Shown in pieces: positions 17,448 to 57,900 of a DNA stretch of 64,000 nt (the stretch's first letter is position 1; every line of letters begins with the position of its first letter). The DNA lies in assembly GCA_000310025.1 (NCBI GenBank), contig FN649740.1, positions 264,728-328,727 on the forward strand, in the 5' to 3' direction. The DNA is from Ectocarpus siliculosus (lineage: Eukaryota; Sar; Phaeophyceae; Ectocarpales; Ectocarpaceae). The translations under genes were made by a program, and so were the position numbers. The notes beneath the pieces were generated by a model that saw only the letters and a program-made list of their open reading frames with translations, was not told the DNA's origin and did no database searches.

Positions 17448-20400
17448 TCAAGCCACAAAGGGCGATCGGTCGCCACCGTCAGCGGTGCATCTGTCCGTGT
17501 CAAGCCACACTGGCGGTGGAGGGCCCGCGGTTCCATCCAAGTGATCGTGCCGGCCGGCCTCTTCGTCCACCATCCAGCTGAGCAGCTCCTTTTGCCTCAC
17601 GTCGTACTCACTCCTGCTGTCCTCCTTCATCCTCTCGTGCCGCAGTTCGTTCTCGCGGATGGCGAGGGCCCACAGCTGGCGGCGCTGGCTGCTCGCCGTT
17701 GTGATCGGCACCACGGAGATGTCCCCAGGGGCGGCAGCAACCCCGCAAGGTCCCAATGGCGAAGAATCTGCCGCTCTTGCCCTCTTGACGCGGTGCAGCA
17801 GCAGCGTTGCCCCCCACCTTTCCGCCACCTTCGAACCGATGTCCCTGCCACTATAGCCGACGTTCCGAACGGCGCTGTTCGAGGTGCTCTTGCTAGCCTT
17901 TTCTCGCTCCTCCTTGCCACTCACAAGGAGTGCCGTCGTATGCAAGTTTGCGCGCGTCACCACCGCGGCCGCTTCTGCCGCCGCGGCCGCTGCTGCCGCT
18001 CCGCTCAAGTTGCTCCTGGTGATTGCGGGGCCGCTCATCCCGTGGACGACGTCTAGCTCGCCCGCTTGCACCTTGGCATCCTGAAGCATTGTCGCAAGTA
18101 ATTTCTTCAGTGCGGCCGCCTTCGTCTGGCGAGCCCTCCTCAGCTCGCTTGCGGTCATCCTAAGCTCTATACGTGGCCCGCCTGGAAAGCTGGTCGGGCT
18201 GGAAAGGGTGAAGACGTCGTCGTTGCCGAGGGCGGCCGACCGGACTCCAAGCCCGCCCACTGTTGGTGCGGTTGCTACCGTTGCGGCCGCGGCTCTCGTG
18301 ATCGCAGGTGTCACAACGAGGTGGCTGTTTGCAGGAGCGCCAATGTCGCCACCTTCACTGACAGTATCCGAATCTACTTCCGCCGGCGGTGACGAGAGCA
18401 TCGTACCTCCGGTCGCTGCGGCCAACTCGGCCAGTTCTGCCAGCTCCGCCATTTCCGCCGTTGCCGCCGCCACCGCCGCTTCCCCGCTTGATTCGTTGTC
18501 CTGCTGCTGCTGCTGCTGCTGCTGCTTCTCTTGCTGTTGCTGCTCTTGCTGCTGTTGAATCGCTTCCGTTTGAGTATGAGACCCCCCTCCTTCGAGAAGA
18601 ACGGGGCCACCACTACCCACAACCGTCAGTGGTACCACGTCAGTAGGCATGGCTGGGGCAGTGGGCGACTCGTCCAATCCAGAAATGTCAGGGCTTTGAG
18701 CTGTGCCGAGAATCGCATCAGCACTCCGCCTAGCGCGCATGTCTTCGCCCCTCCTCCTTGTCCATACCCGGAAAATCTCTCCCGCAATGGCGCGTTTGAC
18801 GAGGTCTGGGGCGGCGAAGTTCGCCAGTACGGCGTCACAGCACGCCCTGAACGCAGAATAGATCGACCCACGTTTTGGTTCGATGGCAGACAAGAGCGGG
18901 AGTGAGCAAGCGTGAGGTCTGCAAAATTGTCTTGGAGTGTCGATTGAATTGGCCCAGCACGACATGCCGCAGATAATGTCGATCAAGGGTCAGTGGCTTG
19001 TGCCCCCGACTACGTCTTCAAAGCCCCAAACGCCAAATGGTGCACTACTATCCCCCAAAGAAGAAAGAAATACCACAAGCTTCTTATTCGCAAGGACTCA
19101 CACTGCTCAGGATGATATTGGAAACGGAGTGAGGACAACGCGGAACCACTCGCGACTTCGCAACATCTTACTGTGCCCGGCAGAATAAACTCCTTCCCCC
19201 CTCCTTTCCGGACCCGGGTCAAGTAAATCACACGCAACCAGCCAGAACGAAACGCCAGCACGCAATTGCACCCCCCTGAACCACGAGTTCACTCAACCAT
19301 CTGCATCCCTTGTTCGCCACCCGACAGACTTGACTTACCTCAGAGCCAAGAGATTTTTTCTTGTGATGTCCAACCCGTGTGCCACCACCAGCTCCGACGA
19401 CGGCACAATCTCCCCGTCCACCATAAACCCCGTCAGCGGGACCTTTAACACATCCAAGGGCATACGACGTGTAGGGATCGGAATAACGAAATACGACAAT
19501 TTGACCGTACAGCTCACTCTCGAAACACGTGACGTGCACATGAGCTTGAACTCGTCAGCGATCACGATCTCTCTAGTTCGATTTTAGCTTACCTTGAGCC
19601 GTAGGGAGGGCCGGCACTGCTTCCCCTCCACGATTTGCACGTGGAGCGGCAGGTCGTATTCGACGGCGCTCTCGCCACCTTCTCCCCCCTCTTCCGTTGC
19701 CGCAGGAACCACCACCGTCTTCTTCTTCTTCTTCTTTCTTCGGTGCATCGACGTGGAATCAAGGTCCTTCGTCCTCGGCCGGCCGTTGTCATGGTCGTCA
19801 ACGAATCCGTCGTTCGCGAAGGCAGCAGCGCCACCAAACAACAACGAGAACTCAGCATTGGCACCCCCGACCGTAGCTCTGCTTCCTCCTCCTTCTCCCG
19901 CGACACGTCTGCCGCCAGAACGAGGATCTGACGATGCCGGCTGCAGCGATTCAGGTGAGCGTGAAAATCCTGTCGCCCCCGGTTCCGGCCCTACAGTTTC
20001 CGCCCCGCCGGAGCCGTACACATCTACGGATGGAGGCGCCGGCTCCAGCTTTCCCTCAAGAACTTTGGGGTCCGATTTCAGCGCTTCCAGCGCCATCTTG
20101 CACTGAAGAGGCCGGTTGACGGCTCGGAGGTCGCCCGCTTTCACCCTTAACTCCATGTCGCTACCCGTGTAGGTCATGTGGATAACTCGAGAGTCCGGTA
20201 CCCATCTCCCCGCTGGTGTTGGCGACGGCGGCCCAGACCGGTCGACATCAAAACAAAAAAAGCGGCAGAACAGCGCATACAAGTTACACCAAACATACAG
20301 AATAAAACGAAGCAGAGAAAAACACGCCGTACGAATGAAAAACTAAACAGGTGAATTATTTTGGGCACTCAAAGTACAGCCGCAGGGATTAACTTCGCAG

Positions 20401-22216
20401 TGGGACGATATCGATCTGATTCCGGAGGCTGGGTCATCCTGGCTACCCTGGAGTGCTTTACGTGCCTGGCCTCGCGAAGCTAACACTAGCAAGCGTGTTC
20501 GGGTAAGAATCGCCCAGTCCGGTGTTCTCTCCAGAACCAGCCGGTCGACGCTTATACTACTCACGAACCACACACATACACGCGCGCAGTCCCTGCGGGC
20601 TTTCTCAACGCCGATCAACTCAACTGAAACAAATAGCATCGCATGATACAACATGATTACCTCCATAGTGGCTGGATTCCACGGCCAATGATGAGCCCTC
20701 TGGCGGTTTGACATGTTCCTCGTCGTAGCGAATCATGGCTTCCGCTGCGATGATTGTGTGAATCGACGTGGGCATCTTCGATCGGTCTGTGGGAAGCAGC
20801 GTGTCCCGGAATGCCCTGCCTCGACCGGAGAAGATGATCGTTTTTTAGTGGCGAGCAACGCGGGGTGGCCTTCGTGGATATCAAGTGAAGAAAAATGAAG
20901 TGACAACAGTAGCATTTCACACGAGGAGAGAGCTACAAGGATGAGTTCCGTGGGCACTCGGTGGTAGGTCAACAGAGAGTTTTGCAGGAAAGCGATGAGG
21001 GACACGTATCAACATCGCCATCTGCTACAAGGCGTCATCCTCGCCGTGTTTCCTACAAGTATAACGCACCACCGCTGTTCCGGGCTGCAAGCGCTGTTCC
21101 GGGCTGCAAGACACGGATAGCCACAAAGGAGTATGGCGAAGTGATTCCCATGGGAATAACTGGCTGTTGTATCGAGCAAAACATGATGATAATGACTACT
21201 GCTGTATCGAGGAAAACGTGACGATAGGTACGGGCTAAAATAGATGCTCATTTCTCCAGGGTCATTCCTCGTCCAAGGTTGGTGGGCACGTTCAGTAGAC
21301 GCATGTAAGAAATCATGTTTCCGGTCGCACCGCCTGCCGAAGTTTGGCCAAGCCTCGTGAGGGAGAAAGAAGAAGAGCAAATAAAACTCTGTGCTACACA
21401 GAGCCCCAAATACGATGGATTCAAGAGGGGTCGCACACGTTACTTGTGAATGTCGCATTGGGGAGAGAGGGGGGGGGCAATGGTGTGATCGACGTAGGTG
21501 GTGTTGATGTTGCGGTTTCTCACGGTCACATGACTACTTGCTACCGTACCGTGTAGATCATGTACCATGGTAAAGAAGTACAGAGGTCGGTTCAGAGGGA
21601 GGGGTGCCTTCTTTGCGGTTGATCAGCACAAACATGCATGGACGACGCCCCGGACACCAATTTTCAACCTTGCACACATGGTTCACATCCTCTTGCTTGC
21701 GAGCATTACGCACCTTAGGGCCAAGAGGTTCTCTCTCGTGAATCCTGGCAGTACACCGAAGTTGTAAGCCCTGTTCTTGAGAGTGCACTTCTCGTTGTCT
21801 ATGCGAAACCCTCCCAATGTGATATCCAGCTTCACACCGCCGGCCTGCCTGTAGATATTGGTGGGGATCACGACCAAATCCCCGTTTTCCAGCCTCATCA
21901 GTCGCTTTCTCTTGGGGGCTGCCACTGGCTTTGTGGTTGCTGCGATCGGCAGCGTCGTGTGGGAGATGCCAGCGGCTGCAGCGGCGGCACTGAACACAGA
22001 CGCAGCTACGACGGTTGGAGTACCATTGCTGGCAGCCCCCTTGACTTCCCGCGATGAATTAGCACCTCCAATCAACGATAGTAGCGGTGATTCTCGCACC
22101 TCAGCCGGTGCTGGCAAAGGTCCGGCGGCTGCCGAAGCTTCGACTGCCGCAACGGCTGCTGCTGTAAGGGTTGCAATATCGGAAGGCCCCCGACTTGCAC
22201 CTTGCCCCGCATCCAT
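17448..22216 (-). CDS. Unrecognised 984-aa protein with two copies of a novel-looking domain
   Basis: I do not recognise this family. Exons in transcript order: 22216-21714, 20815-20661, 20212-19593, 19544-19339 and 18918-17448 (2955 nt, in phase, no internal stop). An Ala-rich N-terminus leads to a module with VVIPTNIYRQ, LGGFRID and TRENLLALR, a helix-like stretch, then MELRVKAGDLR. A second module repeats this order: YFVIPIPTRR, LTGFMVD, TRKNLLALR, a matching helical stretch, a Gln-rich linker (18500-18560), then IELRMTASELR. In both modules a phase-2 intron falls at the same place, inside the last codon of NLLALR, so exon-level duplication is likely. Basic runs (KRKR, RRKKKKKK) suggest nuclear location; this is inference. 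The acceptor at 19545 has a poor pyrimidine tract and is the weakest junction. The start ATG at 22216 was chosen because upstream sequence is low quality as protein. The gene is divergent from the TMTC gene. Confidence 0.72.
18497..18555 (-). repeat. CAG/CTG repeat encoding a polyglutamine linker
   Basis: On the minus strand this reads as Gln-rich runs ([19 protein letters not shown]) inside the last exon of the duplicated-domain gene. The triplet tract is interrupted by GAG and AAG codons. It marks a disordered linker between the second module's two conserved halves. Confidence 0.85.
21073..21110. repeat. Perfect 19-bp tandem duplication in an intron
   Basis: The unit CGCTGTTCCGGGCTGCAAG occurs twice back to back within the first intron of the duplicated-domain gene (21713-20816). 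Nothing suggests a function. A second, imperfect duplication of a TGTATCGAG-AAAAC segment follows at about 21166-21225. Confidence 0.8.
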
Positions 22217-25225: not shown

Positions 25226-28200
25226 TCCCGTGGAGATTGACGAGAGTTTTAGGGACCTTGGATTGGCACCAACTATCCGCGATGGCGAACAGGATTTCGT
25301 ACAACTCAAATCGAAACCAGGGGAGAGCGTTGTGCTCACAGCGGGACAGTCTCGGCAAGGCGAGACCACCGAGGCAACGGCGACAAAAGGGGTCCCACAC
25401 ACGGGCACTCAAGGGCTTGCTACGTCGCTCTCGACGACTGGACCGTCGCCGACCTCCTCTGCCGCCGCTGGAGGCGAGAAACCGATTGGGTCTACGACTG
25501 AAGAAGCAACGTATGTCACGGCGGCTTGCACGGATGTTGGAATGGCGGCGGACACCGGCACCCTTACGACAGTCGCGGTCGATACCAGTGACAACGAAGG
25601 AGAGACTTTTGTGACCCCGGCCTTACACTGCGAAAGCTCCGTCGCCAAAACACAAGAACCAGTGCAAAATCTGCTATCTGGCAACAACGATTCGTCCAGC
25701 CTCAATGATACCCCCGGCGACGACGCTGGGCGCACTGTCGCCGCTGAAGCATCCGTCGAAAGCAGCAACGACGCTACGTCAGAAGCTAGGGGCAGTGTTG
25801 TTACGATGGAAACGATGAAACCACCAGCAACAGCTCTAGAAGCACCTCTTACATACGTTTCCAGCAAAGGATACAATGACGAAGGGGAGGCTACTGCTGT
25901 GCACGGGCGGGCATTGGTAATGGCGGGAAGCGCTTCTTGTCCCCCGTTCCCTATGGGCTTTAATCTTGCCATGACCTCGAATATGGTCCCGGGGAAAGGA
26001 GCTCCCTCGATGCATAATAGAGCTGCTATCGTCATGAAGGAGAAAGACAGCGGGCCTGGAGTGACGAGGTATTGTGCGGCGCTTCTTTTCGCCGCCAGTG
26101 CAACGCTGTGCAAGGAGGTAGGCATCACGGTGTTCGGGCTCATGGCCGGAGGGGAGGTTGTGCGCTTCTTCGAAGAGCGCGAGTGGCGGCAGCGAAAGCG
26201 GAAGCTGTGGCAACGTCGGCGATCGGGGGTCATATCAACAGCGAGAAGTCGTGGGATTTGGCGGAGACAAGCCTTACGGGAATACTGGCGCTGCCGGTTC
26301 ATGATGCGGGTACCGGCGGCTGCGGCGGCGAGAGTCGTATCAGCGACAATCTTTGCCGTGTTGCTGGTGTATCTACACGTACGATTGCACGAGGGGGCGC
26401 GAGTTCGAGAGTGGGGGGTTCTAGAGAACGACATTTCAATATTGCCAAGGTGGGTGCGCTCAGTCGTCGCTTATGCCCCCCTTCACGACCTCTAAGCGTT
26501 TTCGCCTACATATGCAATCCCGCTGAGCTAGCCTCGATCGTCGCGTCATACGCCCTGTTGTCCGTCGCGAAACGTGAGCTGCTTATAGTGACCCCACGGC
26601 CGCCGGTTATTGCGTCATTAAATGCTACTGTCCTACATGACTCAGTCGCACGGAGAGAGCGCTGTCGTACGCTTTCACGCACGCCGTTTACGCCTCAAAG
26701 CTCCTGTGGCCGACCCACCTGTGCTACGACTGGGGTTTCAGGTGCGAGGAACCCTACTGCCCTTGAAAGAAACGCCCCTCATGCTTCTGTTAGGCACACA
26801 CCACTTGAATCTACATAGTTCCTCTTCTATTTGGGGTCCTCACGGACATGCATGGTCTGCTATGCCACGGAATACTAGGAGGGTGGGGCACAGGCATGCT
26901 ATGCGAGAAGGGGGAAAAGTGGCAAAAAAGATAGCATGTGAGTTGAGACACAGAACCTCCTGCCCGGCCCACTCTCGCGATTGATTGATCTGCCGGTCAA
27001 AGCATGTGTCACGTTGTGTTCTCATACCTTACCCTGTCCTCTCCCCTACCCCGTTGCCGCTGCTCGATCGAACAACCAACCGAAACACCAGCTGTATCCC
27101 CCACGTCACGTCGTTGGCCGACTCGGCTAACCTCGCTTCGCTCGCGCTGTACTCTTCGATCCTGGCTGCTGTGGTCTTCGCCGTGGCTCGCTGCGACACA
27201 GCAGTCATGTGGGGAATGGCCTTAATCGTGGTGCCCTTCTTGCCGGCCTCGAATGTTCTGTTCCCCGTCGGCGCAGTGGTTGCGGAGCGGGTACGTACGT
27301 GGGAAAGGACCCGGTGGGAACGGGAGAGGGGGGAAACCCATTCGGTGCTTATCTTGGTCTTGAGGCCGCCAACCACGCCTTACTCATACAGTCATTTTCA
27401 TCGGTTTAGTCACCCTTCGAAAACAGCCGGTCATGTTTCAAAAACAATTTCCGAGGAGCAAGGTTTGGGGGGTCGTATCGTGCGCGATACTCTTTACTTC
27501 AGCAGGAGGTTTCTCGCTCAGATCGTATCGAGACCCGTCTCTTGCTTGTGTTCTCAAGTGCTACTACCCCCCGCCTTGCCGTTTCTCGCCGTTCACACAG
27601 CTTCTGTATCTGCCAAGCCTGGGCGCCTGTGTTCTCGCCAGTTGCACCCTGCGTTCCCGCGACTGGACAAAATCATCACACGGAGAAACTGCTGTACCTG
27701 GCAACGAGAAATATAGTGTCAAATACACGGAAAATTCGAACTCGAACCGAGGAAATGGTTCAACCTTCTCCTCCGAGGGCGGCGGAGAGGACAAGGAGAC
27801 CAATCGACCCTTGTGTTCGCCCTCTTGTAGTGGAACAAGCACATCGAATTCGTTCGGACCGCCTAAAAACGAAAACGGAAGCCAGCAGGATCGGTCGATG
27901 ATTTTCGGGCAGCCTGCAGTCCTTCCCTCCTCGCCGCGACCTTTGGCAGCAAGGGCACCTGCGTGTAGCAGCAGCAGCGCACTCCTTCCTGACCCAGGTG
28001 TAAGAGAGGAGAAGCAAAGCGTTCTACCCCCGCGGCGGGCGCTCTCTATCAGAGGTACGGTCCTACTGCCCGTAAGACGCACCGCCGTGATGGTTTTGTT
28101 ACTGGCCTGGACGACGTACTTTGGCGCGGGGACGCTGCGGCGGTGCAAGGACTGGAGATCCGAGAGAACTCTGTTCGAATCGGCCTTTAAAGTGTGCCCC

Positions 28201-31200
28201 GATGGCATCAAGACACTCAACAACCTCGCCGTGGGCATGCTCAACGAGAAAGAGGCCGGCCGCGCTGAGGAGCTTCTCCGGAGGGCCGTCGAGGTTGGTC
28301 CTAGCCGTAGAGCAAGCAGAATAGGGTCGTCAAGAGGTGGTCAATGAAGCAAGGTTTCGCCCATGCGTCAGACTTGGACGAACAAGAGGCGCAAGTCTAG
28401 ACTACCTCAGCCCCCCCACCTCCTCGACTTTGGTTTCGAAAAAAACATATTGCGCCCATTGAAGGGAGCCATTTGAGACGGTTACAGCTCAACCCGTTGA
28501 TCTACCGTTTACATTCAGCTCCGGAAGGCAATCCTTGCAAGACTCTTATGTGTCGTGCGGTTGGTGGTAGTTGAGAAGTACGACCCCGCCCTCCCCTGAG
28601 GGTAGGTGTCGGTTGGCAACGAAGTTGAATAACAAGCCTCAGTTCACTCTACGTAAACGTCGGACATCAAGTAGTCGTTAGTTACGTGCGTTGTGTGTGT
28701 TCTTTGTGGCAACCATGAATGGCGGTCTAGTTAGATCATATTTGTGTGGGATAAAGAACCTTAAGCTCACACAACGGAGATGATTGTACCGCGTATGTAG
28801 TCTATGTAGTGTACAGGTGGTCACAGATCCACGCGGCGGCAAAATAGTATACCCATGACGAGACAAAAAAGTTGAATTCATTCGAGGTTGTCATATTGGC
28901 AAGGAAATAGGCACACGATGTCGAACGCCTTTCACAGGATGCAGCTTATCGCTTATGCGACTCGCCGAATATCTCACGGCGTTTTGCGCTTTGGTGCGAA
29001 GAGTTAGCCTGCCTCGGTACAAATTCGGCGTGCTCCATCATGGTTGGATTGGGGGTGCGAGGTAAATTGTCTTACGGCTTCAGCACATATGCTCACGTGT
29101 ACCCACCCTTCCCTCGCCATCGCAATGCCCAAAAAGCTGCACCCAGACTTTGGGTTTGCACAGTTCAACCTCGGGGTTAGTCTAATGATACAACGGGACC
29201 ATCTCGGCGCAGTGTCTGCCTTGGAACGAAGCCTGAGGCTTGAGCCCTCGAACACCAAGGTCATGGTCTACCTTGGACAGGCAAGCACACCGTCGAGAGA
29301 ACTGTCATGATGCGCCCAGTTACACGATTGCCCAATCGCTACTAAGTCATGGGCTTGAATGTACAACTGTACACCACGCACGGGTTCAATTCGCCATGTG
29401 TTTCGAGCGATAGGAGCATGTGGCAGTACTCCTTCAATGTCCACTGCGTACTGAGACCAGCGAGTAAGGTGGGCAACGCACATGCATACTTATTGCATTG
29501 TAAAGAGAGTCGTTTAACACACTGTATCGGTCGTCGTGATCCACCTGGGCCAGAGGCAACTACGGGAAGAACTTGTGACTATTTCATTTTGCGCTCATCC
29601 TGATTGTTGTGCAGCAATTCCTGTTGCTACGTGCTGTGGGGTGGATCTCCAAGAAGCACGTTGTTACCACTCCCTCGTTCTCGTTCTGCAAAGGCACGGT
29701 AAACCTCAAAGAACCGTAACCGACCCAAAATGAAGCTTTCCGCCACACCATCGCCACCACCATTATTATTTATTTTCTGATCCGAGATATCGGAGATCCG
29801 TATGCTGTCGAGTACACAAAACACACATGAAAGCACATCTTCGAAGACATTTTTCGGTCGACGCGTTTTTCCTCCGTTGTCCGGTCAGTGCAGGTGTACC
29901 TGGAGCTAACCTTGAAGCGGTTAGAACCCTTGCCCCAGAGAGACCACGGAAACGGCGTTGACGCTGGATTCGACGACACACAACACCACGACGGTGGAGC
30001 CATTGCGGGTGACGGCCAAACGGATGCCAGCAACGACATGCGCTCATCATCAGCTGAGTCGCTCTTATCGAGCGCGGAGTTGAACACCGACCGGGCGTTG
30101 GCGGCGGGAACGGGGCTGCCTCTCGCCAGGCTCGTTAAGGGGCAGGCACTAGCCCTCAGGGGTCAGCATCAGGTGCCGTTATTTTTCCCCACGCCAACCT
30201 CCAAGTGTTTTCCTACTGCCTGCGACATCAAACCACTCCACAGATTTGAGGGGTTGATTGAAATTTATGTCGTTCCACTTGCCACCTAACCAATCCTTGA
30301 AGATCCCTGAGGTTCGGGGTACCTAGCGACGAACATTTTTGCTTTCCCTCGCCCGTCGTGGTGGAATCTTGTGGTTTTGGCGTGTATTTTGCCACGATCC
30401 GTGATCCCCTTGGGTACCAGCAAAGCAGCACACCAGGGGATGCAACAATAGTTCCCGACCTCTCGAGCACACCCCCGTACTGTTTGAGACATGTCTCCTC
30501 TCGTTCGGCAACATTTTTTCCCGTTCGGTCGATAAAGAGTGCTGCAAAGTTCTTCCAGGAAAGCATCGACATTTCACGGCGTCTACTCTCCGGCCGAAGC
30601 GCAGCCAAGGTCCGCAACAACGAAAGCAACAACCCGGTAATCGCGGCAGAGACCATTGAAGTGGCGGACGCCGTTGACCTTGCGAGCACCTACAACCGAC
30701 TGGGTCTGACTTTGAGAGATTCAGGGGAAGATTTGGTTGCCACCAAGGAGGCATTTTTGGCGGGACTGTCGGTGACACCCGACGACCTCGCTCTCCTCGT
30801 CAACGGGGGAGTGGCGCACCAGGTACGAGCAAGCTGTCGTGCACACCGCTCTTCTTGCTGATGACATCATTGTTTCCCGCTAAGTGGATTATCACTCCTC
30901 CAGCAAGTTAAAGAAACAGGCGCTTCCGATATACTTGTCTGTTTCGCGAACAGACTCAGTGGTCTCATCATAAGAGACACCGGAACACGTCATCGCTGTA
31001 TTGGCTGATGTAGCTACAGCACATCACAATTGTTCTTCTATGGCTTGTCTACCTTGTAATGAGCGTCTCTTCTTACAATCCCACCCCCCACCCGTTTGAT
31101 GGGAAGCATTATGACAAAAAAAATGACGGTGTTTTCTCGGCCACAAATGAAACATTAAATGTATGCCAACTCACACAACCTGCCCCCCTGCAGTCAACGG

Positions 31201-34726: not shown

Positions 34727-34826
34727 NNNNNNNNNNNNNNNNNNNNNNNNNNNNNNNNNNNNNNNNNNNNNNNNNNNNNNNNNNNNNNNNNNNNNNNNNN
34801 NNNNNNNNNNNNNNNNNNNNNNNNNN
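34727..34826. other. Assembly gap 1 (100 N)
   Basis: Exactly 100 N, a conventional placeholder for a gap of unknown size, followed by a run of 24 G. Confidence 0.99.
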
Positions 34827-48034: not shown

Positions 48035-48754
48035 AGCACCGTTGCTGTCTCTACCTCAGCGCACAGGCTACTGCAGTAGAAAAGGGGTGGAGCGTATGTA
48101 GCAAACGAGAGCTACTGCTGTGTTGCAACACACGCAGTCAGCACAAGACAGAAAGCGGTCAAGACAAGAGGCCTAGCGGCACCGCAGAGTAAATTCTGCA
48201 GCAGGTACCCTGTCTCGCACGCCTTCCGTCACTACTGCTGTGGAAAACCTCTTCAAGAGGAGAGCTGCACGCGCCGGATGACTTTCCAACAAGAGCGGAA
48301 AGCAAAGCACGCTTATGATTTAGTCTAGGGTGTGAAGCACGGAAAGGCACACGTGTTCCAACCTTCCAGCGAAAGCCGGCCCCGACGACAAACGAGCAGG
48401 AGCAGCGACATTCATTGTTGAGACACAAGGACAACGCCGGGTACCACTTCTATTGACCTACAAGAACAAGCTTGTTCGGAGTGTTTCGGAGTTGCAGCAG
48501 TTCGGAGAAGTTGAGCTTGACAGCCGACACAGCGGGAAGATGACTCTGCTGAGACGGGCGGTGCGGCAGGTATAGCTACAGCCGAGAAGGCGTCCATTGG
48601 CGGGGATTGCTCTGTAGAGGGACTTTGATGGCGACGTACAAGGCATGGAGATGTACTGATGTGTGTGAGAGAAGAGATGCGTGTGATCGTCGATCCTCTT
48701 GTTGATGCATGAGAGACAGCAGTGACACTTGTACACGGCACGCGCCCGCGAGCA
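48035..48754. promoter_or_regulatory. Divergent intergenic region between the R3HCC1-like and ClpX genes
   Basis: 720 bp between two start codons on opposite strands, the third head-to-head pair in the window. Three ACTGCTGT-type octamers occur here (48114, 48234, and the reverse complement at 48716). No TATA-like element is evident. Promoter function is inferred from orientation. Confidence 0.35.
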
Positions 48755-48871
48755 ATGCCCACGCTCCCACCCTCGTCGTCAACGCTCCCGCCCCTCTGTC
48801 TTGTTTTCTCCCTTTCCACCTTACAGCCAGCAGCACTATCTGTCGTCTACAACAACAACGCCCAGAGGGTC

Positions 48872-48916
<45 letters not shown>

Positions 48917-51900
48917 GCTGTACTGCAACTTCGACGGCACTCAACAACCAAGGCGCAGCGTCCCGGCGCGGGCAGGCCGACATGTCCCACTTGCCACGTC
49001 GTGTTGGAGACTCGCAGGGACCTGCAGGGAATGTTCGTTACGCGCTGCCCCAAATGTTCCCCGGCGAAGTGGACGCCTCGGAACATCGAGGGCGCTAGCG
49101 TGAGTTGGGTGTACAAGATCTGTATTTTCTTCTCCAAAACCATCTCTCCAATCTCATCTCTCCCCCTGTCGAGCCTGGTCACGCCGCACTATTATAGCAT
49201 GTTTACTCTCGTTGTGACACGCGCCCACACCCGCCGCTTGCACTTGCTGGATCGAGCTACAAGGAAAAAGCGTGTGTCGACCTTGGCATGGTGATTGACT
49301 GATTCGTGTATGTTTGTTGTTGACAGCATTCAAGTAATTGAGTGACGCCGAGTTGTTTCGTATTTGCGTTGAAGTACCACGTGGATAGCAGGTACACCTG
49401 TCGTCCACGTCAAAGTTGTCATGATTGCGGCCAAATCCTACCATGTTTTCCTCAAGTCGATCTATCAGTTCTCCGAGGCGGTTCCATGCCTAGGTCGGAC
49501 CTACCTGAAGATCGCGGGATGAAGAAGCACAGCGCTTTTGACGACGTCGTTAACCAACGGCATCTTTACGTGGTTCACCACTCTAACAAGCCAGTTTGGG
49601 AATAGATATCTTTACGATGGGACGCGCCTTGAGCTGACCAGTAAGCACAGAGGGCTGGTCGTGTTCTTGACATTTTGATGAAGAAGGCATCGTGCCTGAC
49701 GCGGGCGGACTTGTATTCCTTCCAGTTCTGACCGAGTATCCATACGAAAACATGCGTGATACCCGTACGCCCAGAGAATGATAATGGATTCAAAGCACAT
49801 ATGTAGTGTACACATCGGGAGCGTGTGTTCGCCCACCTGCCGCCAACGTTGGCATTTTCGATATTATATCGTTTTTTGAGATACTCCCTTTCTGGGATTC
49901 GTGGCATCCCCCCTCCCCACCACCCCTCCTTCGAATTGTAACGCAGGAGCTCATCGAGCTCCACGCAGCACATAAAAAACCTCTCTGTTTTACTATTGCC
50001 CCAATAGGTATCACCCCGGGCTTCAGCCTCCAGCATAGGTCCAGGAGCAAGCCACCCGGGCATCGGGCAGGTGTTTCCGGACTCGCACCGCCGGTCCGGC
50101 CCGCCCCCGCCTCCACCGTCCCCGCCGCTCACCCCGCCGAACCCACACACGCCCCACGGTAGCCTGGAGCGAGAGCTGCAGGACGGCATCTCGCAGAACT
50201 TCAAGCTCAGCTCGGACTTGTCTCAACAAGCGCGGCGGGGGGGCGCGGCGGCCGGGGGTCGGACCAGCTGGTCTGGGGGGCGGGGGGGGGTCAGCGGGGT
50301 GCGAGACGCCTGGAATGGTCGGGTTGGTGCTGATGGTGGTCGTGGCGGTTTCGCGAGCCCGTTCGCGGGCGATGGAAGTTCTCGACAACAACACCCGGGG
50401 GCGTTTTCCAAGGGGGAGGGAGGGGGAGGGGCGCGGGGGGGAGAATCCCCGCCCGTGGATGCTGTGGGAGACGGGGGTGACGGCGGCGGCAGCGGGGGCG
50501 CCGGAATCGGGCCGGATCGACGATGGGCGGCGGATCTGCTGCCCAAGGAAATTTACGAGAAGCTTTCGGAGCACGTGATCGGACAGGTGAGCGGTCTTCC
50601 AGGGTACCGCAGAATTGTGGTGCGGTGTGTTTTGGAGGTTGCCGTTTTATGATATGTCCCTGCGTCAAGGAAGCACGTTGGAGGCTGCTATTGTCGTGTG
50701 CTTGGACAGAGATCACCTCAAGGGGCGGGGGTACGCGGAGGAGACATGCAAAGACAATGGGTGGTGGTAGTATGGTGTTGGTTCAGGTGGTCCTTGTCGG
50801 GCGGTGCCCAACGGTCGGTTTGATTTCGCGCCCACGCCGTTCAATTTATTTTATAGTTCAGAACTCGATGGTATGAAAGGTGGTCTGTTGTAGTTTGCAT
50901 TTTCTCTCCCAAGTGGCCGTGCTCCATTTGTAGCATATAGTGGCTCCGAGTGTTTGCATCTTTGGATACTTAGATGATGAGAGATGCTTTCTCTTGTGGG
51001 CGCGGTTTGTTGTTGACTGACTGTTGAACGATGTGATGATCCAATCATGAAATACTCGTTCACATCGCCTTTGTCAAGACTACTGTTGCGTTGGCAGCTA
51101 AAGGCAAGCTGTTCGTGTTTCGCGTTGTAGCAGTCCTGAGCAAGAACTCTTCCTGACATTGGCTGGTTGTTCCCGGTCTGATGCTAGTCCGACGGGTCAA
51201 CTGCCGCGTTGACCCGTTGCCTCAATCTGTTTCCCACTCTCTTTGGGCCGTGCAGCACAACGTAAAGCGCGCCTTAGCTGTGGGGATGCACAACCACTTC
51301 AAGCGAATCTCCGTGTGCCCGCCGACGGAGCAGCCGGGGCCCCACAGAGTGCAACACGCACCACCACCTGAGGTACCTCTCCCTCCCCCCTGCTTGCACA
51401 TGTAGATAGCAGCACTTAAGATTATTTTATATATTTGTGTATTATGATGTAGAAGATAGAAGAGGACGTTCAAAACAATCGGTGTGGTAGCTGCCTGATC
51501 GGCCCATCCGTTTATCCTCAATTGCTGGATAAACTGCTCGTGACCCGGGGATACCCTCCTGACATGCTTCATCTCGGTCGTTTAGGTGTTTGGGGGTCTA
51601 AGGTTTCAGCGCTTGGCCATGCAGACAGCGCCCCACCACCCCCCCTCCCAGCGGCTCGCGTAGCATTTTCTTTTCCGCCTATTACTTTTTCTTCCATTGA
51701 ATGTGTGGCGCAGCTGTTCTGGGATCTCGAGGGGAACGTTTGAGTGTCTTTCCCCCCAAGGGATCCACCGTGCTAGAACTATCCCGCTGCGCTGGATGGC
51801 GACATCAGTGGCGGGGTCAAGTAGTATCTAGACCTTGTTCGACGAAAGGAAGCGAAACGTTGGTGGGGCGGGCTTACGTAGGCGTGGGATGGGTGCCTCA

Positions 51901-54900
51901 AGCCTCGCGGCATGCACGACTTGTCGAGAGGAACGATAAAAAGTGTTCGTGCCATGGGTCAACTCGGCATGCAAACAAGGCACCATCGAGTGCAGATGCC
52001 ACTGGTGCTGTGCTGAACCAATTGCCGTGAAATTATGTGTACTTTCTAATAAAGAGTGAACAAAGACAGCGGAGGCGAGGGTCATTCAACGCCAAATGAA
52101 CTCTGGAGGTAAAAAAATGCTTGTTCGTAGAAGAACAAGACATTCAGATAGCACAGTAGGAGCCATCGTCCGTGCAGCAGAGCCCCCAGGATTACACTTA
52201 CACAAAAGGTATAATAAACCCAAGCCATTAGAATCAAGTGCATCCCGTACTGCTGTGCAACAGAGGGTTTGCAGTTTGCCCCCCGAAATCACACCCTGGT
52301 TTGATGGTGTATTGCGAAAAATTGGGTGCGAACGGGCGTGTGTACACGTATAGGACGTCGCTCAGTTCTGTCACGGATCCTACCTGTAATATTTCCGAAA
52401 ATGTTGCTGATGTTGACCGAAAAACCCTGGCGTACACTGATGCAAGGCCTTTGATGCCTGAGGTCGGCTTTTTATTCTCGACCCGTATAACTCGGTGTGC
52501 GACCACGCAAAAGGAATGCGTGCCGATTGGGCCACCATGGAGCAGGAGGTAATCGATAGAGGCGACAATGGACACAGCTAGTGACGTTTTACAACATTAT
52601 ATTAACAGTAACACACTCACGGATGGTTGTGTGTTCTGTTTGTTTGTATGGGTGTTACTCTGTGCAGGCCTTGGAGCAGACGTTGAGTGACGTAGACCTC
52701 CAACTGCCTGGCATCGCCGATCACGACGCCATGGCGAAGCCACAGCAGCAGCAATGGGTAGGGTCCGGGGGCAAGGTGAGGATACCGCAGCATCCTTGAG
52801 AGAAAATATGAGAGGGGGGAGAAGAGGGCGATCCACAGCGGTAGTTACCAAGAACCAGATTTCGTTGAATGTAGGCGTAGCAAGGAGCTGGGGAATATGG
52901 ATTTGGTGTGGCACGAGCGATTGGTGTCGTTGTGTTGTGTGTGCCGGGTTAACCATGTGCAAAGCTAGATCGGGGGAATTAGGCTTGCTTTCGGCTGTGT
53001 GTCTTCAAGGAACCGGCAATTGATAACAGGCGTGCATGCTGTCTAGTTGGTATCCTCGAAACCTTCTAGAGGTCAGGTCAGGGGTTCGAATCCCGGCGTA
53101 GGCGAGCTTTTCTTGCTAAGTGAGTTTTTCTCTCGCTTCCGCTTCTGGCCAAGTGGATAGCGCTAGTTCGTGTGTACACAGAGGGAAGAGAGTGCTGAAC
53201 TCTTCTCGCATTAAAAATCGAAGGCAAAGTACCGCAGGAGGGTAGGGTAGAGAGGGGCTCTTCTGTGCGACCACGGGTTGGAGTAAACGACACTAGAGCT
53301 GTGAGCGCTGATTTGAAGTGAAGACCAAAAAAAAAAAAATGCTGTACTTTTGAGGAGCCCAAGGTATTCTGGAATCCTTTGGATGGTCAAGGTCGCGGGT
53401 TCGAATCCCGGCTTAACACAACTAATCAGAAAGAGCACACTAATCGTGAGCAGTATGCCATGTTTGACTTAATGTTGACAATGGGGGGTAAGAGGACATG
53501 CTCGAAGAGAATTGATGCGCTTCTCGCAGTACAGGTGAAGACATGAACCGCAGAGAGGAATTGCCCTGGGTAACGTAAAATCGGGACGTAACTCCTCAAG
53601 TGTGTGTGGTCACGTGTGTGTTTCGTCCGGTGTTTTGTGGCGCTAGTCTGCATGTTTCGGTATATATTTGACGTATCAGCCGGGGGTAAAACAGGGACTT
53701 TTTCTGTTTTTGTCCCACGTTTCCCCTGTGATGGGGAAGGCAATACAGCTGGGGCGACAACATTTTTCGATGTAGGCAAGAATGAAATAATGAAATTCTG
53801 GCATGGGAAAGGTAGCTGTAGAGGGGGGGGGGGGGAGGAATGGAGGCTTGAGTGCGGTATGGCGGTGGGGACCGGTCGTTTCTGTTGTATGCAGAGGAGA
53901 CAACGGGATGGCAGACAGATGTTAGCCATCGCTGTGTGCTCCTGTTCCATGGTACATGCAGTACATGACGCGTCTTTCCCCGCGGAACGTTCTTGTTTCT
54001 TTTCTCCTGTCGGCTGTTGAGCAGCAGCAAATGCAGGAGCACCAGTACCAGCAGTATCAACGGCACCAGCAGCGACAGCAGGAGCAGCAAGAACCGCCTC
54101 CTCCTCCACAAGACAATGTGCAGGTAAGTTTCCCCTTCGTCGTGCCCACACGCCACACCCCTTCCAGTCTTGCACTATGTACTAAGCTGGTACCGGTACA
54201 TCGCCCAAGCTTGTCGCAGGCAGCTAACAGGGCTCGAGGGTGGAATGTTGTGTCGATACGTTGGCAGCAGTTCTCCGTTAAACCCGCCTCGTTTAAGCAC
54301 CAGAACTTGTTACTGCTGATAATGACGACGTTGTTGAGGTTCATGCACACCACGGACCAACCGCCCACAAGGAGCAACACCTCCCAATGCCCCGCTCCCT
54401 CGGTTGCTCCCTTGCAGCAGGACGTCCAAAAGGCTAAGCTGAACCTGTCGAACGGGATCGAGGTGGAGCCGGTGGTCCTCGACAAGACGAACGTGATGAT
54501 CGTCGGGCCCACGGGGTCGGGCAAGACTCTGCTGGCCAAGACGCTGGCGAAGCTGGTAGACGTGCCTCTCGTGATTGCCGATGCGACGTGCCTAACACAG
54601 GTGTGTGCTTGTGTGTGTGTGTCTTTGTTGTTGGCATCGACCGCGGTTATTGGCTGGCCAATCAAGATACGTCAGTCTCAGCGCGGTTGAAAACAGAAAA
54701 CGCTTCTGAAGGCCGTGGTCTGGGACCCCGTGAGAGGACGTCATGGGGTAGGCTAAACTAATATCGGCTTTTTAGACAACGGTAGAACCAGAAGGCACAT
54801 GTCTACCAAGGCTGCTACTTTGTTTGCGGGTGTGTGTGCAGTGTTTTGTCAGGTGGGGTTTTTATTTCTTGTTTCTTCGCAGATACGTTTGTTGTAGTTT

Positions 54901-57900
54901 CATATGTCGTTCGTTTGTTTTCGGTATCAACGTTTGTTTTCGTCCGTAGTCTTGGCGCACCATGATTCACCACGCGGCTGCATGTAGGACTGTTGTAAAT
55001 GGTGCAACAAGCTTTTTTTTGGCAACCGTGGCTTAAACAGGGAAAAAAACTTGCCTAGCGTAGGATGTGGGATTGCCGTGAGGTATGCATCAGGGCCCAT
55101 ACCACGTCAGGACTATCGGCGTGCCCCCTGGGTCCCTTGATTGATTCGTCGGGGCCCCTTCCCGGTCTGTCTGCTCGCTCTCCTTGTGGGTCCGGTCCGC
55201 AGGCCGGATACGTGGGCGAAGACGTCGAGTCCATCCTGCACAAGCTGTACATGGAGAGCGGCCAGGACATCGAGCGCTGCCAACGCGGAATCGTCTACCT
55301 GGACGAGATCGACAAGGTTTGGTTAGGTTAGGTCTGCATTTGGTTGGCCCTCCCAGTAGTTGCGCTTTGACATGTTTCGTGATGAGCATATATTGTTTTT
55401 GGGTTTCTCTGTGGCGGATTGAGTTTTTTTCTGGCCTTAAACCTAGCGTTCTTAAACCTAGCGACATTGAATGAACACGTCACACTATGCTTGGTTTGGG
55501 TCTTACTCTTCGACAATTTTAAGTCCTACGAACAAATGTTTGGGCTGTGGCGGTAGTTTTTTTTGTGGATTTGGTTTTCGGCCAACTGATATTTTTTTTA
55601 TTGTCCCATGACCTATTCGAGAATCTTGACATAGTCCACACTACGAAAGTATTTAGAATGCTATGCTACATTGCCGGTAATTGGTTTGCCGCTACCTGAA
55701 TGCACATGTGGTGTCGGTGATGATGACGCAAGTGGGATGGATTCGTTCCAGTGTAAAGAAATACCATGTTTTGGTCTATTTTTTGAGCGGTGGAGACACT
55801 AAGTTCCTGTCGACCAGACGTCCATCGCACCGTGGTGGAAGCTGCGCTGTTCTTTGCCTGAAGTGATCTTTTTCAAACACATATCTTATGAATTTTTTTT
55901 TTTGTCAGATTTCAAGGAAGATGGAGAACGTGAGCATCACCCGCGACGTCAGCGGGGAGGGCGTGCAGCAGGCTCTCCTCAAGATCCTAGAGGCAAGTCC
56001 CGTTTGTTTCTCTATTGTTTTTCTTTGTTCTATTGTGTGTGTGTTTCTCGGCCTATTGTTCTTGGTTTGTTTCCTTTGGTTGCGGTCTTGTCGTTGTAGT
56101 ATGCGAATGATGGGTTGCGGGCATCGTTTCCCCTAGCTCAACTTCTTACCGATCCACGTTCGGCATGTACCCCGTCCTCTCATGTGCGTTTTAGAGACGA
56201 CGTCGTGCAAACTGCTGTCTCATTAACCTGTGCTACTACCACCATATGGACATCACAATATCCCTACTGTGTGCATCCCCTGCAGCATGCCATCAATGTC
56301 TCAGCCCTTCTGCAGTGTTTTTTTTTTGTTCTACAACGATCCACCAGCTTGAGCATGCCCTGCAGCACGCCAACCATGTCTCAACCCTTCCCCCGTGAAT
56401 ACTTGTTTTCCACTGCGATCCACCCAGGGCGCCATCGTCAACGTGCCGAAGGACGGGGGCCGCAAGAACCCTCGATCAGACTTCATCCAAGTGGACACGA
56501 CCAACATACTCTTCATCTGCGGGGGCGCGTTCGCCGGCCTGGAGCACCTCATCAACAACCGAATCGCCAAGTCTAGCATAGGCTTCGGGGCTAACCTCCC
56601 CGCCGACCTCACCAATCCGGAGATGCAGGTATAATGCGGAGAGTAGCTGGCTGCGAGCTTCGGGCGAAAGGAAGGACGGCATGGTTGGTTGTGAGGAACG
56701 ACTAAGATAATACATTTAGGGCGACGGCGGGGGGGAAAAGTTCCTCCGCGGGAGTGTTGTTTGGNNNNNNNNNNNNNNNNNNNNNNNNNNNNNNNNNNNN
56801 NNNNNNNNNNNNNNNNNNNNNNNNNNNNNNNNNNNNNNNNNNNNNNNNNNNNNNNNNNNNNNNNGGGGGGGTGGCTTAGGAAAGGGATCCGGAAGTCCAA
56901 ATTAAACCCACAAGGGAGGGGGTTTCCGGAAACCCCTTGGGGGTGGTTTTGTGTTTGTTGTTGTTTGGGCATTAAAAACATTTGGGATTTCGGTTCGGTA
57001 CTTTTAGGTACGGGGCCCAGTTCCACTTTTGGGGGTTGGGATAACAAACGGGGCGGGGAAAGGATTAAAGGATTCTATCAGGGGGAGGAGGAGCCGGAGA
57101 AACTGGTTCAGGAGGGCAGTACAAGTTCCAGTTTGGCATTGGAAGAGGGGGAGTTCCACATGGGGAAGGCGCTTTCAGAGCGGGGGCGGGCCAGGGCCAT
57201 CAAGAGGGACACGGGGGGGGGGGGGCTCCGGTGGATCAGGGAGAGCCTCCTTCTTGAAGCCATGTTCGACGTGCGGGGGTCTGACGGGAATGCTGTTTAT
57301 TTCGAGGAGGATGCTGTGTTGGAGAAAGGAAGGTGAGGCGGTTTAGGGGGGGGGGGGGGGGAGGGGCCGGTGAAAATCGGGAGCTCGTGTAGGGAGGCGA
57401 TGCGGGGTCGGTTTTTTTTTTGTGTTGAGCGATGGACGGAGACTGAGGAAGGCGACAGGCTTGTAGAGGTACAGGACACCAAAGAAGTGGAGCTGGCGGA
57501 TGGATCACATCCGCAGACGCAAGGCGTTTCGAAGAGAGCGAAAGAGGGCATGGGTGACCGCAGGGGGGTCCATAGAACCAGAATAATGACGCATTTTTTA
57601 CGGCAATTGCAAAGATTCTTGTCGAGTCTGTATTCTCTGCTCCCGGCCAGACGCCACGCTACAGATGACTTTTGTCGTTTCTTCTCTACACGGCGGTGGG
57701 TTCGACCTGAAACCATAATTCGATACTGATATGTTCTTCCTTCTTGCGAAAGAAAAGTTCACACAACACACTCCAAACCCCCTCGAACCCCCGTCGTCCC
57801 CTATGCTGATTCGCTCTATCTTGCCTTGTGTTATGTTCGTCGTATCTTGGTATTTATAGTGTGCTTCTCCTCAAGGGGCAGGACACGCTCGAGAGCTACC

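Follow-up and report, generated by a model that had tools for sequence, protein, structure and literature searches.

The window analysed here, a 64,000-nucleotide stretch of Ectocarpus siliculosus DNA, contains a gene on the minus strand running from 22216 to 17448, read in five exons. The original prediction described its product as a 984-residue protein with two modules, each carrying the same five blocks in the same order: VIP...R, L-GF-(I/V)D, TR(E/K)NLLALR, a helical stretch with S-I near its start, and (M/I)ELR--A--LR. Judged from sequence comparison, the locus is probably a five-exon, minus-strand gene whose product has about 926 residues. The duplication of an internal unit looks real, but its two copies resemble each other less than first described.

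Gene structure and choice of splice acceptors

One splice choice (exons 22216-21714, 20815-20661, 20212-19593, 19544-19339 and 18918-17448, minus strand) yields 984 residues and one terminal stop, reproducing exactly the coordinates, strand and length first given. That length is nevertheless probably too long, because two of the five blocks claimed as common (VIP...R and S-I) would probably be intron taken for exon; in copy 2 they fall in two stretches with intron-like codon scores. We prefer a model of 926 residues with acceptors at 19442 and 18846 (Table 1). The assumed start, ATG 22216, is not certain, and the frame is open further upstream with two more in-frame ATGs.

Table 1. Features of the gene in window coordinates (a slash marks an exon/intron boundary)
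Feature	Positions	Strand	Content
Exon 1	21714..22216	-	Ala/Ser-rich N-terminus, PKRKR, block A of copy 1; ends within the NLLALR Arg codon, phase 2, AG/GTGCGT
PKRKR basic run	21916-21902	-	Exon 1; precedes copy 1 block A by 22 residues
Intron 1	20816..21713	-	898 bases; within the NLLALR Arg codon, copy 1
Exon 2	20661..20815	-	Helical-looking stretch of copy 1 (AFRDTLLPTDRSKMPTSIHTIIAAEAMIRY...); phase-1 donor GGAG/GTAATC
Exon 3	19593..20212	-	ELR block of copy 1, linker, RRKKKKKK run, start of copy 2 (DLPLHVQIVEGKQCRPSLRLK); donor AAG/GTAAGC
ELR block, copy 1	20165-20118	-	GSDMELRVKAGDLRAV, exon 3
RRKKKKKK basic run	19742-19719	-	Exon 3; precedes copy 2 block A by 38 residues
Disputed stretch	19443..19544	-	LMCTSRVSRVSCTVKLSYFVIPIPTRRMPLDVLK; read as exon by the 984-residue model and as intron by the preferred model
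Exon 4, preferred	19339..19442	-	Remainder of copy 2 block A (VPLTGFMVDGEIV...TRKNLLALR); phase-2 donor AG/GTAAGT
Intron 4, preferred model	18847..19338	-	492 bases; within the NLLALR Arg codon, copy 2
Disputed stretch	18847..18918	-	PHACSLPLLSAIEPKRGSIYSAFR; read as exon by the 984-residue model and as intron by the preferred model
Exon 5	17448..18846	-	Helical-looking stretch of copy 2 (ACCDAVLANFAAPDLVKRAIAGEIFRVW), Gln-rich run, candidate ELR block, two TRxNL, charged C-terminal stretch, stop
Gln-rich run	18557-18501	-	Exon 5
Candidate ELR block, copy 2	18179-18132	-	GPRIELRMTASELRRA, exon 5
Two extra TRxNL motifs	18023-18006, 17960-17943	-	Alanine-rich part of exon 5
Charged C-terminal stretch	17684-17559	-	Exon 5

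Codon usage was scored after training on exons 1, 3 and 5 and on two other long frames, which are unproven long ORFs. The 5th percentile of coding sequence was 0.011. Presumed non-coding sequence, cut into overlapping 102-base pieces that came from the background set itself, averaged -0.25, with 0.141 as its 95th percentile. Scores of 0.214 for exon 2 and 0.158 for the undisputed part of exon 4 are coding-like, though both lie outside the training set. The stretch 19544-19443 scored -0.325 at 47% GC, and 18918-18847 scored -0.193 in the frame concerned, this second stretch having itself belonged to the background set.

It is unlikely, in our judgement, that the 984-residue model is correct, with an intron 3 of 48 bases, exon 5 starting at 18918 and all five blocks common to both modules. 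The model does offer a single open frame of 984 residues with usable GT and AG sites, and including VIP...R leaves the block score nearly equal: acceptor 19442 scores 54 against 52 for 19544, and by gap setting the scores are 65 against 63 or tie at 69. However, both of its extra stretches are intron-like by codon score, and its intron 3 of 48 bases (150 bases with acceptor 19442) is far under the median of 524 bases given for Ectocarpus autosomal introns in PMC12477816. For Ectocarpus, PMC6507550 gives an average intron of 703.8 bases and a GC content of 53.6%, which the window, at 53.5% with N excluded, fits. Moreover, starting exon 5 at 18918 lengthens the alignment of the copies past NLLALR by only 0 or 1, whereas acceptor 18846 lengthens it by 11 to 15, an extension that 59 to 90 of 2000 shuffles also attain, and improves the score between the copies by 11 to 13 points. 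At the other site, acceptor 19442 joins the end of exon 3 to VPLTGF and the alignment of the copies continues; since the gain in score there is only 2 or 0, it is the codon scores and the avoidance of a 48-base intron that make us prefer it. The copy 2 counterparts of VIP...R and S-I are accordingly doubtful, the first having an intron-like codon score and needing the 48-base intron, the second having a negative codon score and bringing a gain of only 0 or 1 past NLLALR.

A repeated block with a shared intron

In the 926-residue model, block A runs VKLDITLGGF...TRENLLALR in copy 1 and LRLKVPLTGF...TRKNLLALR in copy 2, aligning as VKLDITLGGFRIDNEK...FTRENLLALRAFRDTLLP... against LRLKVPLTGFMVDGEI...ITRKNLLALRACCDAVLA... 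with a score of 65. When residues 1-370 were compared with residues 371-926, with low complexity masked and no segments chosen beforehand, block A was the best match, and none of 1000 shuffles reached its score (maximum 59). Shuffling the modules window-wise gave the same answer (0/2000, maximum 48), and with exon 4 as originally predicted the beta-part scored 52, again reached by 0/1000 shuffles. The claim that the L-GF-(I/V)D and TR(E/K)NLLALR blocks are repeated is therefore upheld, far above chance.

Copy 1 exits exon 1 at CTAAG/GTGCGT and copy 2 exits exon 4 at CTGAG/GTAAGT, so that both donors cut after the second base of the NLLALR Arg codon, in phase 2. The matching intron first reported for the final Arg codon of NLLALR in both modules is thus borne out at the level of sequence. 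The preferred model also holds introns that are not shared, one in copy 1 (phase 1, before the ELR element) and one in copy 2 (phase 0, before VPLTGF). Each would have been gained or lost once the duplication had taken place.

Two marks of intragenic exon duplication are seen: the copies are significantly similar in block A, not in the ELR element alone, and by sequence both have an intron at the same aligned position and in the same phase. Because block A is repeated and the intron position and phase are common, the best reading is that an exon-intron-exon unit was duplicated inside one gene. The exon-block duplication originally proposed keeps the support of block A and the shared intron; of its other blocks, two are probably intron and the ELR element is only suggestive. 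Tandem duplication of a domain through exon duplication gives rise to a general kind of protein, and the likeness here lies in two copies within one protein that hold an intron of the same place and phase. What sets the present case apart is that the unit passed no family cut-off in any library searched and that its copies are highly diverged, each with an intron absent from the other.

The ELR element and the helical stretch

The two ELR elements (GSDMELRVKAGDLRAV and GPRIELRMTASELRRA) aligned with a score of 48. None of 1000 shuffles reached this when the two chosen segments were compared, but in a search of the whole tail it was reached by 269/2000 shuffles (192/2000 window-wise), which is not significant. 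After low-complexity masking the score fell to 33, reached by 747/1000 shuffles and below an unrelated match of 34. The order of block A followed by an ELR-like element is the same in both copies, spread across exons 4 and 5 in copy 2. The claim of a shared (M/I)ELR--A--LR block hence stands for its order and not for its score, and the element backs the duplication through position, which we regard as suggestive. For both block A (pN 0.43, pS 0.68) and the ELR element (pN 0.38, pS 0.83), pN is below pS, only a rough sign of constraint because pS is high.

The helical stretch did not hold up as a matching block. Compared apart, the helical stretches were not above chance for either start of exon 5 (397/1000 and 412/1000 shuffles), and anchoring on NLLALR gave only the weak extension reported above.

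Since block A and then the ELR-like element keep their order across exons 4 and 5, these two exons would lie in one transcript. The alternative, that the locus holds two separate genes or that exon 5 forms an independent gene starting at an internal ATG, draws on the fact that the exon 5 frame is open upstream of the acceptor and has in-frame ATGs. Against this, copy 2 has its block A in exon 4, and exon 5 carries its helical stretch and then its ELR element, ordered as in copy 1; moreover, a donor consensus closes exon 4, and unspliced reading meets a stop at once. We consider two genes quite improbable and retain the single five-exon gene.

Exon 5 also contains two extra TRxNL motifs, making 4 occurrences in 926 residues where 0.008 are expected (5000 shuffles), for a motif that was picked after looking. 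A third module was not found when the C-terminal part was compared with copy 1 (548/1000 shuffles, chance-like). The comparison with copy 2 was borderline (27/1000); that match enters an alanine run, and the first extra TRxNL lies inside the matching stretch.

Search for families and relatives

The original prediction had been unable to assign the module to any family. No family cut-off was reached in Pfam, NCBIfam or PHROGs by the stretches scanned, and the relatives sought were viral and prokaryote. In Pfam, copy 1 matched no family and copy 2 matched only DUF3666 (E 0.091, under the cut-off). NCBIfam returned no family for 3 stretches, and PHROGs gave one unconvincing match (E 0.13) for 2 stretches. 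A PDB profile search, in which the copy 2 row had the longer exon 5, yielded one unconvincing match (E 1.4), and a PDB search with the C-terminal part yielded none. The lowest Pfam E-value belonged to TFIIA (E 0.0043, with 17.5 bits where the cut-off is 36.2), a match that falls on the Gln-rich run. No accepted match stands behind a nuclear or binding role.

Could the modules belong to a known family missed by sequence profiles, or could the C-terminus be the R3H-associated region of a known nucleic-acid-binding type? The C-terminal part, at about 17900-17559, weakly matches PF13902 (R3H-assoc) over positions 4-100 of the 127 in the profile, so that the likeness of this charged region covers most of the profile (15.4 bits, E 0.026). 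However, the curated cut-off of 25 bits is not reached, and on the longer reading frame the match drops to 11 bits (E 0.57). From the name of the PF13902 family, an R3H domain is expected in the same protein, and none was matched in the stretches scanned, the spliced protein having been scanned in pieces. Moreover, the PF13902-like region lies outside the duplicated modules, whose own Pfam results are those given above. We regard either possibility as unlikely.

Pattern searches of viral contigs found 33 stretches for block A of copy 1, 59 for the two-copy alignment A3, 120 for the ELR element and 9 for the C-terminus, and no relative was confirmed among any of them; the same holds for 59 stretches found with alignment A3 in prokaryote genomes. 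The DNA of 17448-22216 had no match in phages. Within the window, tblastn of the modules returned the gene itself and otherwise only matches of E 0.26 or weaker. None of the titles listed in literature searches names such a domain, though it could still have been published. A novel Ectocarpus protein described in PMC7922944 was considered as this gene and rejected, having 391 residues and a DUF1768.

The modules were modelled with AlphaFold2 from single-exon pieces, each supplied as an alignment of two rows. The model of the copy 1 ELR element shows two strands and then helices, at low confidence (mean pLDDT 61.8), and that of block A has nothing usable, at very low confidence (mean pLDDT 43.8).

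Surroundings of the gene

Ten neighbouring reading frames were scanned, and nothing seen around the gene pointed to the undescribed system that was originally suggested. One frame, 53926-54690 (+), contains a ClpX-type ATPase stretch, matching ClpX in the PDB (best E 1.3e-12) with Pfam AAA barely over its cut-off. Weak tetratricopeptide-repeat matches at 27364-28347 and 30301-30861 (+) are under the cut-off, as is a weak TFIIB-type zinc-ribbon match at 48713-49294 (+) (18 against 22 bits). Neither Rfam families at gathering scores nor tRNAs were found within the window, and two runs of 100 N (34727-34826 and 56765-56864) mark assembly gaps. Direct repeats between 16500 and 23500 form 8 families (20-35 bases), and the same region has 5 inverted pairs (20-30 bases) as well as 4 tandem rows; no transposon frame was seen among these repeats. 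Intron 1 contains a perfect 19-base double at 21073-21110 and, nearby, a 28-base pair of 86% identity at 21164 and 21199.

A possible nuclear protein with paired modules

Both copies of block A are preceded by a basic run (PKRKR and RRKKKKKK), which we take to be runs of nuclear-localisation type, and the linkers have a high content of Ala, Gln, Gly and Ser. The explanation we favour, tentatively and with somewhat less than even confidence, is a single gene for about 926 residues in which an old intragenic duplication of an intron-bearing unit produced paired binding modules in a nuclear protein. On this explanation, a beta-type exon end, the phase-2 intron and a helical exon start would have been copied within the gene, the ELR element may have been part of the duplicated unit, and all five exons would form a single transcript. 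The protein would be located in the nucleus, where the paired modules could offer a partner protein or nucleic acid two linked surfaces on which to dock. Moreover, the Ala/Gln-rich linkers and the charged C-terminal stretch might recruit further factors, in the manner of a transcription or chromatin cofactor. Taken together, the best reading is an orphan protein, nuclear and probably regulatory, that carries a small alpha/beta unit twice; its nuclear and binding steps are ones that we infer.

A bolder proposal, which we think rather unlikely, is that only brown algae or stramenopiles possess this unit, a new small alpha/beta domain serving as the paired binding module of a nuclear regulator. 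The extra TRxNL motifs of exon 5 would then represent what is left of a third copy, or else shortened forms of the unit's contact motif.

Orphan genes are common in such genomes, and what we describe is currently one predicted gene, for which the collections searched held no detected relative. Should it prove to be a true domain, the unit would represent an unassigned building block in a possible regulator, from a lineage about whose regulators little is known. Moreover, its two diverged copies with their common intron would provide a seed profile with which relatives may be found.
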